From positions 62,001-126,000 of the forward strand of contig JAHBXX010000004.1 of the NCBI GenBank assembly GCA_019636245.1: a stretch of 64,000 nucleotides of DNA, in the 5' to 3' direction. A program made the position numbers and the translations under genes. Source of the stretch: Planctomycetota bacterium. Lineage in GTDB: Bacteria; Planctomycetota; UBA1135; UBA2386. The notes below the pieces were generated by a model, which worked only from the letters and a program-made list of their open reading frames with translations, searched no databases and was not told where the DNA came from. The stretch's first letter is position 1; every line of letters starts with the position of its first letter. Positions 49,414-55,705 of the stretch are shown here, piece by piece.

Positions 49414-52302
49414 TTACCGCGGCTGGCCACGCCGCGGGGTCGCCGCCGGCTCGGACGCACCTTCGGCCGCCGCGGCGCGGGCCGGGCCCGCCGGCAGGGC
49501 CAGGTCGGTCGCTCCGCCTTCGCCGACGGTCACGGGCTGGGAGGCACGTTCCCGGCCCCGGACGGTCACGACGGCGAGGTAGCTGCCGGGCGGCACCCCT
49601 TCGAACTGGAAGGCGCCGTCGTCGATGCGGGTTTCGAACGCCGGGTTGTCCCGCCGCCACGCGTTCAGGTTCTCGGGCAGGGAGGTGAGTCCGGGCAGCA
49701 GCGCGATCTGCCCGTTCCGCTCGCTGGCAGGGGTGCCATCGTCGGCCGTCACGCGTCCCGCCACGGAAACGGCGCGCAGCGAGAGATGGCGTTCGGTGTC
49801 GACGCTGGCGACGATCCGGACGCGTTCGTCGTGCAGGGTGCCACGGCGGCGGCCCTGCTGTACCCGCAGCCGGTAGTCGCCCGCGGGCACGCCCTCGAGG
49901 TGGAACCGGCCGGATGCGGCCACGGTCGTCTGCTGCGCCGTACCGAAGCCACCCCACATGCCGCGGCCGCCCGCGCCGGGCCGATCGTCGCGCGCGGCGC
50001 TGTTGCCGTCGTCCACCCGCGTCAGCTCGACGCTGAGGCCTGCACCGGCGACGCCATTCAGCAGGATCGAGCCGGAGAGCGAACCGATCTGCGGCCGCCA
50101 CAGCGCCACGTCGAAGCGCACGTCCTCGCCGCCGCGCACCGTCACGTCGGCGGTCAGCGAGCCGTCGAAGAACCGCGGCCCCAACTCCCGCATCAGCTCC
50201 TGGGGCGAGCCGATCCAACTGCGCACCAGGTAGCCACCCGGTTCCAGGCCCTCGATGCGGTAGGAGCCATCGGCCGCGAGCTCGCCGGTGCGGAACGGGC
50301 CGCCCTGCCCGCGGCCGCGGAACATGCCCGGACCCATGTTCCCCATCGAGGCCGGCACCGCGGCGATCCGGGCCTGGGTGTGCTCCCCTTCGGCCAGGCC
50401 GCGCACCATGCCGACGACGGCGCCCAGCGTGCCGAGGCGCAGCACGACCCCCGAGCGATCGCCACCGAGTTCGAACGGATCGACGCTGGCCTCGGCGAAC
50501 CCATCGGCGGTGGCCTGCAGCCGGTAGGTGCCGCGTGGCAGGTGCTTCAGCACGAACTCGCCGTCCACGTTGGTCGTCGCCTCCAGGTTCCAGGCCGCCC
50601 CCGCCAGCTGGCGCGCGAACTCGCGACCCATGCCGACGAAATCGGCGCGCCCGGACTCGGCGTCGCCGCGGTCCCGACGGGCCGGCTGTGGCGACCGCAG
50701 CGTAACCCGCGCGCTGACGACCGGCAGGTCGCGGTCGTCGCGGACGACGCCGGCGAGGTACACGCCCCGGTCGAGGCGGATGCGTTGGTCGGCCACCGGC
50801 GCGCCGAGCCTCAGCTCCACGTTCTCGCCCACGTAGCGGGCGTGCTCGGGCGATTGCACGAGCAGCTCGTAGATGCCCTCCTGCAGGCCGGTGACGGCGA
50901 AGCGGCCGCCAGGATGCGACTCGGGGCGCGCGGTCTCGCGTTGGCCGCCGGGTGCGCGCCCGCCGCCTTCGGCCCGTGCTCCCCGACGACCGTCCTCGAC
51001 CTCGCCGCGCAGGCGCTCGAACTGACCGCGCATCGCTTCGCGTTCGGCGGGGTCCAGGTTGCCGCTGCGCATGCGTTCGAACATCTGGGCCGGATCGGTC
51101 GACTCCATGCCGGCAGCCGGCAGGCCGCGGACTCGCACGGCGCGCACGGAGAACAGCGGGACGGGTGCACCGTCCTCGTCGACGACCGTGCCGGTGATGC
51201 GCAGGCCGTCCGGCAGGGTCAGCCGCACGACGACGCCCGCGGTCGGATCGAGGGGGGCGAGGTGCGAGGGCAGGTAGCCATCGGCGCGGGCGTCCAGGCG
51301 CAAGAATCCCCCGGGCAGGTGTTCGAGGGTGAAGCGTCCCTGCGCGTCGGACGTGGTGCGGTACTCGCGGCCGCCGGGTTCCTGGCTCTCGCCGCGCAAG
51401 GAGCGTGCGCTCACGCTGGCCTCCGCGATCGGCTTGCCGTCGGTGGCGAGCACGACGCCGACCACCTCGTAGCCCGGTCCGAGGCGGATGTCGGCGACAT
51501 CGATGGCCTGCTCGTTCTCGACGGCGAACACGCTCGAACGTCCCTCGGTGTGCTTCTGCGCCTTCGCGCCGAGCGACCAGTCCCCCGCCGCCACCCGTGG
51601 CAGTCGGAAGTAGCCGTTGGCGTCGGTGCTGGCCCCTGCCAGCAACTGCTCGCGGTCGCGCAGGAACCGCATGCGGTTGCCGTTCTCGGGCAGCAGCTCG
51701 ACGGCGGCGCCGGCGATGCCGTTGCCGCCGAGGTCGGTCACGCGCCCGACCACCTCGCCGCCCCGTTCGACCTGGAGATCGCCCACATCGGCCTCGGCGG
51801 TGACCGTGCCGAGGTCCTTGTCGAACAGCGCGGGCGCGAAGCGCGGGTGCAGCACCTGCAGCGACACGCGCAGCGAGCGGAAGGTCTGGCCCTGGAACGC
51901 GAACCGACCCTCGCGATCGGTCTCGACCGGGTCGGGCACCCGACGCTGGCCGGCGCCCTGGCCGGGGCGCGGCCCACCACGGCCGAACTCGAGCCATACC
52001 TTGGCGCCAGCCTGCGGCGCACCGAAGCGATCGACGACGCGGCCACGCAACAGCAGCGCAACACGCGCCTCGCCCGCCGCGGCGAACGGACCGGCCGCGG
52101 CCTCGATCTCGGTGCGCTGCACGCTGGTGTCGCCCGGCATCGCGGCGGCGGCGTCGCCGACCTCGTCGAGGTCGATCTCCTCGTGCTCGGACCAGCGCAG
52201 CGGCCGGGTCTCCTCGGGGGTCAGCAGGCTCGGCAAGGTGAGGCCGCCCGCCACGAGCAAGACCAGGGCACCGACGAGCAGCAGCAGGACGTGTTTCGGC
52301 AT
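49414..52302 (-). CDS. multi-domain carboxypeptidase-regulatory-like envelope protein
   Basis: 962 residues. Signal anchor KHVLLLLVGALVLLVAGG, then a charged linker and at least seven beta-sandwich units of the CarboxypepD_reg/transthyretin type, each with a G-x-V/I-x-D... start and a (T/A)DAxGxFxLxHLPxGxYxL middle: for example around residues 85, 185, 275, 355, 515, 590, 720 and 845. An insert with many Arg, Glu and Gly (about 405-445) interrupts one unit. No enzyme domain is present. Such arrays are frequent in planctomycetes and serve as stalks or adhesins; the target is not known. Confidence 0.85.
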   Translation of the reverse strand: MPKHVLLLLVGALVLLVAGGLTLPSLLTPEETRPLRWSEHEEIDLDEVGDAAAAMPGDTSVQRTEIEAAAGPFAAAGEARVALLLRGRVVDRFGAPQAGAKVWLEFGRGGPRPGQGAGQRRVPDPVETDREGRFAFQGQTFRSLRVSLQVLHPRFAPALFDKDLGTVTAEADVGDLQVERGGEVVGRVTDLGGNGIAGAAVELLPENGNRMRFLRDREQLLAGASTDANGYFRLPRVAAGDWSLGAKAQKHTEGRSSVFAVENEQAIDVADIRLGPGYEVVGVVLATDGKPIAEASVSARSLRGESQEPGGREYRTTSDAQGRFTLEHLPGGFLRLDARADGYLPSHLAPLDPTAGVVVRLTLPDGLRITGTVVDEDGAPVPLFSVRAVRVRGLPAAGMESTDPAQMFERMRSGNLDPAEREAMRGQFERLRGEVEDGRRGARAEGGGRAPGGQRETARPESHPGGRFAVTGLQEGIYELLVQSPEHARYVGENVELRLGAPVADQRIRLDRGVYLAGVVRDDRDLPVVSARVTLRSPQPARRDRGDAESGRADFVGMGREFARQLAGAAWNLEATTNVDGEFVLKHLPRGTYRLQATADGFAEASVDPFELGGDRSGVVLRLGTLGAVVGMVRGLAEGEHTQARIAAVPASMGNMGPGMFRGRGQGGPFRTGELAADGSYRIEGLEPGGYLVRSWIGSPQELMRELGPRFFDGSLTADVTVRGGEDVRFDVALWRPQIGSLSGSILLNGVAGAGLSVELTRVDDGNSAARDDRPGAGGRGMWGGFGTAQQTTVAASGRFHLEGVPAGDYRLRVQQGRRRGTLHDERVRIVASVDTERHLSLRAVSVAGRVTADDGTPASERNGQIALLPGLTSLPENLNAWRRDNPAFETRIDDGAFQFEGVPPGSYLAVVTVRGRERASQPVTVGEGGATDLALPAGPARAAAAEGASEPAATPRRGQPR

Positions 52303-52443: not shown

Positions 52444-53799
52444 TCAAGGCAGGAGGTGGAGCCGCCTGGGCGCGGTCGTGCCCAGATCGCCCGTGCCGAA
52501 GGCGTCCCACGCCAGCACCTGCACGTCGATGTCGATCGACTGGCCACCTGGATTCGGGGCGACGAGGTGCGCGGACCCGTCCAGCGCCACGACGCCCGTT
52601 GCCAGCGGGATCGCTGCCAGCGGGTCCAGGCCCAGCCACAGCGGGATGCCGCCGAGGGTGGCGACCACCGTTTCGCCGCCGCTGCCCGCAAGGCTGGCCA
52701 GCACGAGCGCCAGGCCTTGGGGGGGTGCGTTCGCCAGGTCGATGGGGAACGGGCCTGGCGGCACGGCCGTGGCGGTCGGTTGCAACCGGGGCCGCGCGGC
52801 GTGCATCTGCCGCCAGGTGAAGTGGGTGGCGTAGTCGGTGCTGCCGACGGCCAGCCGGGGCGCGGTGTCCGCGGGTTGGAAGCCGCGGAACGGTGCCGAG
52901 GGCAACGGTACGAACTGCAAACCGAGCGCGTAGGCGCCGGGTCCGAGGTCGATCGTCGTGCCGACCGGCACGAGGCCGCCGGGGGCGGTGTGTACGACGC
53001 GGCTGCGCATCGGATCGGTGGCGTGGATCCGGCCCGCGTCGTCCTCGGTCAGGTCGTAGAAGCCATCGAATCCGCTGCCGACCGAGGCGACGTCCGCCAT
53101 CGACAGCGTGGCGCCGGCCATCGCGGCGGCGACCCGGAGCGCTGGCACCTGCAGCAGGCGGGCCGTGCCGGCAGGGGGCGGCACGAGGGAACCGAGTTCG
53201 CCGACGACGAGGTCGCCGTTCGCTCGCAGCAGCAGGGGTGCCGACGGCCCGACCAAGGGCAGGATCTCGCGCGGCGTTCGCCCGGGACCGACCAACCACA
53301 CTCCGGACTGGGCGCCACCCTGTGGCCAGAGCGGGTTGGCGCTGACCAGCAGGTCGGCGCCGAGGGCTATGGCATCGAAGGCATTGCGCACCCCGGGGAA
53401 ACTCGTGATCGCGCCGAGCCGGGGGTCCAGGACCCAGACCACGGCGGACACGAGCGAACCCGCGGCCACGAGGCCACCCGGGTAGGGGGCCAGGAACGCG
53501 ACGTCGTCGCTGGCGCCGAGATCCAGGACCGGCCGGCTTCGGGCCGTCCGCTGTCCGCCGAGGAGGTACACCTCGTGCGCGACGGCGACCACGTGCTGCC
53601 TGGCGTCCCACTGCAGCAGGGCGCGCACCTGCAACGGCTGCGCGGTCTCGGAGAACGTCGCCGAGACTCCCCAGCCGAGCGGCGGCGCCTGCGCGGGCGC
53701 CCGCGCGAGGAAGGGACCAGGGGACAACAGCCAGAGACAGAGAAGGGGAAGCGCGGCAGCAAGCCCGCCGGCCGACCGACCGGTCCGTTCCTCGTGCAT
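52444..53799 (-). CDS. secreted propeller-like protein under a cobalamin riboswitch
   Basis: 451 residues. Signal peptide GLAAALPLLCLWLLSPGPFL with cleavage near APA-QA (about residue 37). Residues 45-330 show repeated short strands with GAxDVAFLAPYPGG, NAFDAIALGADLLVSANP and FYDLTEDDAGRIHATDP patterns that look like blades of a beta-propeller, and the last 110 residues form the Gly/Pro-rich beta module common at the end of planctomycete secreted proteins. A cobalamin riboswitch precedes it on the same strand and GAGGTGG lies 3 bases before the ATG. A surface B12-binding function, as in the propeller protein BtuG, is inferred. Confidence 0.75.
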   Translation of the reverse strand: MHEERTGRSAGGLAAALPLLCLWLLSPGPFLARAPAQAPPLGWGVSATFSETAQPLQVRALLQWDARQHVVAVAHEVYLLGGQRTARSRPVLDLGASDDVAFLAPYPGGLVAAGSLVSAVVWVLDPRLGAITSFPGVRNAFDAIALGADLLVSANPLWPQGGAQSGVWLVGPGRTPREILPLVGPSAPLLLRANGDLVVGELGSLVPPPAGTARLLQVPALRVAAAMAGATLSMADVASVGSGFDGFYDLTEDDAGRIHATDPMRSRVVHTAPGGLVPVGTTIDLGPGAYALGLQFVPLPSAPFRGFQPADTAPRLAVGSTDYATHFTWRQMHAARPRLQPTATAVPPGPFPIDLANAPPQGLALVLASLAGSGGETVVATLGGIPLWLGLDPLAAIPLATGVVALDGSAHLVAPNPGGQSIDIDVQVLAWDAFGTGDLGTTAPRRLHLLP

Positions 53800-53865
53800 C
53801 GACCACCTCGGCGTCTCGCGCGCCGGACGGAAACTCGTTGGGGCGATCCTCGGGATCGCTCCCCG

Positions 53866-54100
53866 CGGGTGTTCTGGCTTCCGGTTCGACCTACTGGCCC
53901 GCCTTCCCAGGGCGCCGACGCGGCGGTCCCAGTGGCGTTTCGGGCGTTCGTTCCCGGTGACAGCTGCGGGACAGCGCCGGATTCGCACCGGCTTCCCCGC
54001 GGGGGCGGGCGACGATACCGGTCCTGCCGTGCCGGACAAGCACGGCGGCTGGCCGGGTATGGGCGCGGGGCTTGCGGGGATGCTCCCGGCACCCGAAAAG
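53866..54100 (-). promoter_or_regulatory. cobalamin (B12) riboswitch
   Basis: Read on the minus strand from 54100: P1 arm CGGGTG (54095-54090) with GGTGCC, the core GGGAAGCCGGTGCGAATCC (53996-53978), CTGTCCCGCAGCTGTCA (53974-53958), GCCACTGGGA (53936-53927), GGGAAGGCGGGCCAGTAG (53908-53891), GAAGCCAGAACACCC (53882-53868) and the closing arm CACCCG (53871-53866). The order and most conserved blocks are those of the cobalamin aptamer (RF00174 consensus from memory). A hairpin GGGG-AG-CGATCC/GGATCG-CCCC (53864-53840) follows as a possible expression platform, without T-run, so translational control is likelier. It would switch off the downstream propeller gene when B12 is plentiful. Confidence 0.93.
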
Positions 54101-54140: not shown

Positions 54141-54920
54141 ATGCACGCATCCCTGCTGGCCGACGTTCGCTGCGGCGCTGCCGAGGCAGGCCTGAACCTG
54201 TTCGGCATGGTCGATGCGGAGCGGTTCGATGCCTCGCAGACGAAGGAGCGCCGGATCCGCGCGATGGCGCCGGGTTGCGGCACGGTGCTCGTCCTCGGCA
54301 GCGGGGGGCGGCAGCTGTGGCAGCGGTTCGCCCGGTCGTGGATCGTGCTCTCCCGCGACTGCGCGGCCGAGCTGGATCGTTATGCGATCGAGCAGGTCGG
54401 CGGCGTCGAGGCACGCTTGCAGGCGGCGTCCCTGCCGGCCCGCGCCGTGGCCCCCGCAGGCGGCACGCGGCTGCCGTTCGAGCAACTGGGCGAAGCGGCG
54501 GGATTCGGCACGATCTCGCCGGTGACGGGCCACCTGCTGCACCCCGAGTTCGGTCCGTGGGTGCGGGTGCGGGGCGTTGTCCTGGTCGATGGCCGACCCT
54601 TCGGTCCGGTCGCGGACGCCTCGATCGCCGATCGCTTCCAACCCTGCTGTGGCTGCAGTCGTCCCTGCGTCGCCGCCTGCCCCGCCGGCGTGCACGATGG
54701 TCTTGGGCGGCAGGATCTGGCCCGCTGCGCCGCACAGCGCCACGTGGAGTCCTGTGCCGCGCACTGCCGCAGCCGCAGCGCGTGTCCGGTGGGCAGCGAA
54801 CACCGCGACGGCGAGCACGAACATGCCCACCGGCATGCGCAATCGCTGGAGGCGATGCGCCGCGGACTGGGGATCGGCCGCTTCCGCTGGTTGCCCGTGC
54901 GGTGGCGTCCACCGACATGA
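54141..54920 (+). CDS. two-cluster Fe-S protein resembling part of QueG/corrinoid reductases
   Basis: 259 residues. The C-terminal third has two Cys sets: C169, C172, C176 and C180-Pro (a ferredoxin-like 4Fe-4S motif) and C196, C205, C209 and C215-Pro. GVVLVDGRPFGPV before it resembles the segment preceding the clusters in epoxyqueuosine reductase QueG, a cobalamin enzyme, but the cobalamin-binding N-terminal domain is not recognisable. A His/Glu/Asp-rich tail (219-232) may bind metal. It starts 41 nt from the 5' end of the divergent riboswitch and overlaps the BtuF-like gene by 4 bp. Probable role: electron transfer in corrinoid handling. Confidence 0.65.
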   Translation: MHASLLADVRCGAAEAGLNLFGMVDAERFDASQTKERRIRAMAPGCGTVLVLGSGGRQLWQRFARSWIVLSRDCAAELDRYAIEQVGGVEARLQAASLPARAVAPAGGTRLPFEQLGEAAGFGTISPVTGHLLHPEFGPWVRVRGVVLVDGRPFGPVADASIADRFQPCCGCSRPCVAACPAGVHDGLGRQDLARCAAQRHVESCAAHCRSRSACPVGSEHRDGEHEHAHRHAQSLEAMRRGLGIGRFRWLPVRWRPPT

Positions 54921-55705
54921 CCGGTGCTCCGCAGCGGATCGTGAGCCTGGTGCCCAGCGCGACGGAGAGCGTCTGCCGACTGGGGGGCGGCAGGGCCCTG
55001 GTCGCGTGCACCCGGTACTGCGTCGAGCCGGCCGCGGAGCTCGCAAGGGTGCCGCGGATCGGCGGGACCAAGAACCCGCGGCTCGACGCCGTGGTGGCGC
55101 TCGGCCCCGACCTCGTGCTGGCCAACGCCGAGGAGAACCGGCCCGAGGACATCGATTGGCTGCGGGCGCGGGTCCCGGTGCTGGTGCAGACGCCCTGTTC
55201 GGTCGACGAGGCGACGGCGGCCCTGGTCGAACTGGCGGCGAGGCTCGGCGTGCCGGAGGCCGCGGCGCCGCTCGTGCGCGAGATCGACCGCATCCTCGCC
55301 GAGGCGGCGGTCGGAGCACCCGGTGCCGCACCCTTGCGGGCGTTCTACGCGGTCTGGCCCAAACCGTGGATGACGGTGAACGGCACCACCTTCGTCCACG
55401 ACCTGATGGGCCGCATCGGCCTGCAGAACGTCGCGGCCGCCGCCGCGGCGCGCTATCCGTCGACGTCGGTCGACGAGGTGCGCAGCTGGTGCCCCGACGT
55501 GGTCCTGCTGCCGAGCGAACCCTGGGCGTTCACGGCCGCCGATCGCGATCGTCTGGCGAGGGAGCGCACCTTCGGCACGCCGGTGGTGGAACTCTGCGAC
55601 GGCCGCGACTTCTGCTGGCACGGTGTGCACATGGCCGCGGGGATCCGCCGGGCGTGGAACGTGGCCTGCCGGCTGGCCACGGCGGCGCGCGCCCGGCGCG
55701 CGTGA
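54917..55705 (+). CDS. BtuF-like cobalamin-binding protein without signal peptide
   Basis: 262 residues of the helical-backbone metal-receptor family (Pfam Peripla_BP_2): RIVSLVPSATESVCRLGGG, IGGTKNPRLDAVVALGPDLVLANAEENRPED and the C-terminal WCPDVVLLPSEPWAF are hallmarks of BtuF-type vitamin B12 binders. No signal peptide precedes the domain (it begins MTGAPQRIV), as in several cytoplasmic homologues. No BtuC or BtuD is present. ATG 54917 overlaps the Fe-S protein gene (ATGA). Together with the riboswitch this makes a corrinoid locus. Confidence 0.87.
   Translation: MTGAPQRIVSLVPSATESVCRLGGGRALVACTRYCVEPAAELARVPRIGGTKNPRLDAVVALGPDLVLANAEENRPEDIDWLRARVPVLVQTPCSVDEATAALVELAARLGVPEAAAPLVREIDRILAEAAVGAPGAAPLRAFYAVWPKPWMTVNGTTFVHDLMGRIGLQNVAAAAAARYPSTSVDEVRSWCPDVVLLPSEPWAFTAADRDRLARERTFGTPVVELCDGRDFCWHGVHMAAGIRRAWNVACRLATAARARRA

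Follow-up and report, generated by a model that had tools for sequence, protein, structure and literature searches.

What does a cobalamin riboswitch control in a planctomycete when the gene behind it resembles none of the usual targets? To our knowledge, extracellular capture of vitamin B12 has been well studied only in gut Bacteroides, and a search of the literature, with subscription papers and preprints outside its reach, retrieved no paper joining cobalamin riboswitches with planctomycetes. The question is raised by one locus in the 64,000-nt stretch of planctomycete DNA analysed here (the window), for which an earlier note, made by a model from the letters and their open reading frames, had proposed a minus-strand cobalamin riboswitch in front of a secreted, propeller-like protein. 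The features of the locus are as follows.

49414..52302, minus strand: 962-aa protein with eight carboxypeptidase-regulatory-like domains (Pfam PF13620), next gene of the putative operon
52444..53799, minus strand: gene of the secreted propeller protein (family 'A', 451 aa), first gene 3′ of the riboswitch, with no Pfam, NCBIfam or PDB sequence family
52453..52755, minus strand: C-terminal beta-sandwich module of that protein (residues 349-449), from model strands and from C-terminal-only profile matches in other ORFs of relatives
52777..53673, minus strand: propeller domain (residues 43-341), its model strands fitting six blades of four
53803..53809, minus strand: possible Shine-Dalgarno sequence GAGGTGG before the ATG at 53799, read from the sequence
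53866..54095, minus strand: cobalamin riboswitch, with an RF00174 core at 53998-53867 and possible outer P1 arms at 54095-54090 and 53871-53866
54141..54920, plus strand: CblC(MMACHC)/QueG-like protein, its tail rich in cysteines, divergent neighbour, from profile matches and Foldseek
54917..55705, plus strand: BtuF-like/TroA-like binding protein (262 aa), 3′ of the CblC-like gene (PF01497, 63.6 bits; NF038402, 163 bits)

The riboswitch itself was confirmed by the Rfam covariance model RF00174, which matched the minus strand at 53998-53867 with 81.8 bits (E 1.3e-18; gathering score 31.5). This alignment spans model positions 45-169 and leaves the 5′ stretch 54100-53999 unaligned, and several relatives gave full-length alignments (model 1-189). 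The earlier note had drawn the aptamer from 54100 to 53866 and closed it with a P1 helix of CGGGTG and CACCCG. Its core is matched by the model and the two arms (54095-54090 and 53871-53866) are complementary, but they fall outside the RF00174 alignment, in which the 3′ strand at 53871-53866 is paired with GGG at 53998-53996 instead of the CGGGTG arm. Because of this limited coverage and the different partner, we regard the outer P1 helix as plausible only. From the end of the match to the start codon of the 451-aa gene there are 67 bases; minimum-energy folds of the leader revealed no clear terminator or anti-Shine-Dalgarno element, and a pairing that CACC could form instead with the Shine-Dalgarno sequence may be due to chance in GC-rich RNA. 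Only two cobalamin riboswitches were found in the host genome, the one described here and another on contig G000:C27.

The first gene 3′ of the riboswitch starts at 53799 on the minus strand, as the earlier note had stated. Searches of Pfam, NCBIfam and PDB sequences assigned its product to no family, let alone to a known transporter or B12-synthesis enzyme; no Pfam family reached its cut-off. The open reading frame (53799-52444) begins with ATG and encodes an N-terminal hydrophobic signal of the Sec type that ends in AQA and shows no typical lipobox (secretion signals were judged by eye throughout, and gene calls came from a simple composition script). An AlphaFold2 model built from 17 homologous sequences reached a mean pLDDT of 90.2 and a pTM of 0.85, and its Foldseek matches are propellers, bearing out the fold anticipated from the letters alone; reading of the model's DSSP string gave the count of six blades. 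A secreted propeller protein is thus the well-supported prediction for this gene.

The Foldseek matches cover many kinds of propeller, and the BtuG2-cyanocobalamin complex is among them without standing out: it is the ninth match by E-value (6e-7), with a TM-score by target of 0.46, whereas better overlap with the model is seen for six-bladed structures of the NHL, Pizza and SMP-30 types (TM by target 0.6-0.7). As these six-bladed folds fit better than BtuG, the fold alone is no proof of B12 binding. In a PDB profile search, the family profiles matched a single blade in designed Pizza propellers and in PknD. Between the two faces of the propeller, loop conservation differed only marginally in favour of the one where ligands usually sit (p about 0.07), and we do not count this in favour of binding.

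In a first search with the window protein as query, propeller homologues were detected in 22 of 61 genomes of relatives, nearly all with a cobalamin riboswitch upstream. They form two related groups, 'A' (the window type) and 'B', which often occur in tandem in the order riboswitch, A, B, 962-aa protein. The window locus holds A and the 962-aa gene without B, and in the host genome the B profile matches the A gene only. Both same-genus genomes carry the tandem B gene, for which the host has nothing between 52302 and 52444 or elsewhere.

We extended the analysis to a class-level sample of 154 genomes, all from one order, 110 of which were matched by the B profile; two had a short or C-terminal match only and were left out of the distance count. 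Of the 108 genomes counted, 103 had a cobalamin-type riboswitch on the strand of the propeller gene and upstream of it, compared with a chance expectation of about 0.01 genomes. In 82 of them RF00174 matched within 1 kb (median about 170 bases), in five more the distance was 1-3 kb, with the second secreted family described below or btuCDF in between, and in 16 more a scan of the upstream kilobase gave a weaker match to the cobalamin clan, some below the gathering score. The five genomes without an upstream riboswitch include three whose gene lies at a contig end. In other families of the phylum, RF00174 was detected in 14 of 18 upstream regions, corresponding to 13 of 16 tested genomes, with scores of 51-109 bits. 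Most of the genomes are metagenome assemblies (those relatives that carry names are Planctomycetota MAGs), and per-genome counts are not independent evolutionary events. The pairing of riboswitch and propeller across Planctomycetota is no local accident.

Unremarked in the earlier note, the propeller gene sits within a conserved operon and beside a CblC-like gene. The 962-aa gene occupies the same, last place of the operon in many relatives. On the other side, the divergent gene at 54141-54920 encodes 259 residues and keeps its position in many relatives. Its profile found QueG as best PDB match (E 6e-4) and matched PceA and human MMACHC weakly, and the top 23 Foldseek matches of its predicted structure (overall pLDDT 70; for residues 1-160 mostly 70-96) were all MMACHC or QueG entries, with E-values down to 4e-6. 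MMACHC and QueG are cobalamin-binding proteins, so that the CblC-like product is probably a cobalamin-binding or B12-processing protein, as judged from its predicted fold. It resembles them in this fold and in a conserved LLHPxFGPW stretch that falls where MMACHC aligns, but differs in its poorly predicted tail, which carries cysteines that are partly missing in relatives. For the adjoining BtuF-like protein (54917-55705) no signal peptide was evident. The neighbours of the window propeller gene include no TonB receptor gene.

Among relatives, operons combine the propeller with B12 uptake genes. The order riboswitch, btuC, btuD, btuF-like gene, propeller was seen in two genomes (G047 and G053), and in a third (G310) a btuF-like gene comes after the propeller gene that the riboswitch controls. 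Together with the pairing within the order and in other families of the phylum, these btuCDF- or btuF-containing operons back the earlier note's proposal of a B12 function that does not depend on BtuG. In G036, the gene between the riboswitch and btuF, btuC and btuD encodes a secreted protein whose propeller-type match is weak, and YVTN-like secreted proteins take the first place behind the riboswitch in G057 and G045. At these three loci (L105, L106 and L132 of G057, G036 and G045, respectively), which thus hold secreted propeller-type proteins behind cobalamin riboswitches (with YVTN repeats in G057), the A/B propeller has apparently been replaced by another propeller family; these families of the order are without A or B.

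Other riboswitch-associated arrangements were observed as well. A BtuB-like TonB receptor behind a riboswitch was found only in G011, at a separate locus (L099; G011:C518), where two serial cobalamin riboswitches precede a DUF6580 membrane protein and the receptor, respectively, and a probable cobalamin adenosyltransferase follows the receptor. The recurrence of DUF6580-like proteins behind B12 riboswitches (G011, also G019 and G038) suggests that they are a B12 transport component. In G002, a riboswitch precedes a BtuF-like protein. At L123:4659-5885 on the minus strand (G002:C33), as well as in G030:C77 and G033:C50, the protein behind the riboswitch is secreted and joins an N-terminal domain lacking an assignment to a BtuF-like domain.

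The host's other cobalamin riboswitch, on G000:C27, precedes a second secreted protein, of 338 residues (L023:8084-9097; G000:C27:34083-35096). Its family is present in 18 of 61 genomes at 19 loci, 18 of which carry RF00174 just upstream, while the remaining one starts at a contig end. It has many invariant residues and a weak similarity to the LIC_13355 lipoprotein; it was assigned to no Pfam family, the PDB yielded no relative of it, and neither Pfam nor the PDB profile search gave a DUF4465 match. We consider it a candidate B12 binder. In G015 a gene of this family comes first in the riboswitch-propeller operon, and in G374 a long ORF matching its profile lies behind the propeller. At L033:10019-10394 (G005:C53), cobalamin riboswitches stand back to back and divergent, one serving propellers and the other the second secreted family.

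The gene content of the host (its genome is 92% complete) points to a need for the vitamin: the activation domain of B12-dependent methionine synthase (MetH) was matched, and CobD/CbiB and CbiA/CobB gave no match while controls were found. Since it holds a MetH domain and gave no match to these biosynthetic proteins, the host is probably unable to make B12 and would have to import it. Its three TonB-dependent receptors are all encoded away from the window locus, and we found none of them tied to B12. The same applies to its single FecCD-type ABC permease, encoded with a binding protein and an ATPase beside it and not near a riboswitch.

Taken together, these data make it probable, in our judgement, that the locus serves riboswitch-run scavenging by a B12 auxotroph, in which a secreted propeller captures corrinoid outside the cytoplasm and passes it to the uptake machinery. 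The window propeller is most likely an extracellular corrinoid-capture protein, BtuG-like in its working but no BtuG, because its pairing with the riboswitch recurs phylum-wide beside B12 transport and processing genes; the regulatory evidence for a B12 role of this family is strong. The riboswitch would sense cellular cobalamin and presumably repress the operon when B12 suffices. At low B12, repression would be lifted and the propeller secreted; outside the cytoplasm it would bind corrinoids, cobalamin or others, and deliver them to outer- and inner-membrane importers, and the CblC-like enzyme could then strip the corrinoid's upper ligand inside the cell. Speaking against this reading are the placement of the model among general six-bladed propellers, where BtuG2 is one match of many, the marginal difference in loop conservation, the lack of a TonB receptor gene next to the propeller gene and the position of the FecCD-type transporter away from any riboswitch.

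Propellers of SMP-30/gluconolactonase and Drp35 match the model at least as well as BtuG does, and for other genes it is established that riboswitches control B12-independent isozymes. The propeller might accordingly be a secreted enzyme of the lactonase, lyase or dehydrogenase type, or a quinoprotein, that binds no B12 and acts as a B12-independent substitute when the vitamin is short. We consider this unlikely, as relatives encode the propeller in one operon with btuCDF or next to btuF, and in G057, G045 and G036 unrelated secreted propeller-type proteins stand in its place; such replacement behind the riboswitch is easier to reconcile with binding than with a fixed enzymatic step. About equally improbable is a reading in which an uptake complex includes the propeller as a structural or partner subunit (a scaffold at the surface, the lid of a receptor, or an adaptor), with the second secreted family as the real corrinoid binder. 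Their common regulon, their single operon in G015 and the many invariant residues of the second family would agree with such a division of labour, but numerous genomes carry the propeller without the second family, so that there, at least, it works alone.

A further explanation accepts the riboswitch-gene association as genuine, yet takes the later 962-aa gene, which follows in many relatives, for the main target, or the RNA for a relic without control. Riboswitch and propeller are, however, the only conserved pair in many genomes of three groups (f8, f27 and f71), and aptamer scores well above the cut-off speak against a relic, leaving this explanation with very little probability. Corrinoid capture by the propeller remains our preferred reading. 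Whether it belongs to a wider scheme is more doubtful: it is conceivable, though we would not bet on it, that Planctomycetota own a convergent extracellular B12-acquisition system, in which secreted propellers, frequently paired in tandem, and the second secreted family stand behind cobalamin riboswitches and CblC-like processing takes place inside the cell. As most genomes have no dedicated adjacent BtuB, corrinoid may enter these cells by a non-BtuBG route. The propellers constitute a testable protein family without a Pfam or NCBIfam entry, conserved across a phylum common in soil, water and sea, and if they bind B12, many genes now called hypothetical would gain a function.

How does this protein relate to known systems? 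With NHL, SMP-30 and YVTN propellers it shares the overall six-bladed fold, but it stays below every Pfam cut-off, and the functions of these look-alikes vary and give no assignment. DUF4465/BtuJ proteins are extracellular B12-binding proteins, and a DUF4465 member from the planctomycete Mucisphaera calidilacus was among the proteins picked for B12-binding tests (PMC12751083, PMC13398666). They resemble the proposed system as secreted B12 capture proteins from riboswitch-controlled loci; however, DUF4465 is a beta jelly roll whereas the window protein is a predicted propeller, in which no DUF4465 domain was matched.

BtuG2 of Bacteroides thetaiotaomicron, a seven-bladed propeller, acts in complex with BtuB (PMC10404256; structure PDB 8ptf). 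Orthology of the window propeller to BtuG was rejected: Pfam gave no match to PF16819, the BtuG propeller family, the PDB profile search returned no BtuG entry at E-values up to 1, the model fits six blades rather than seven, and BtuB is not a neighbour. BtuG2 is, moreover, a surface lipoprotein always adjoining BtuB, while the window protein has neither a typical lipobox nor an adjacent BtuB. What the two have in common is that both are extracytoplasmic beta-propellers (in the window protein, by prediction) under a cobalamin riboswitch, from loci with btuF, btuC and btuD, here those of the window's relatives. If the planctomycete protein binds B12, propellers would have been put to use in capturing corrins on at least two occasions.
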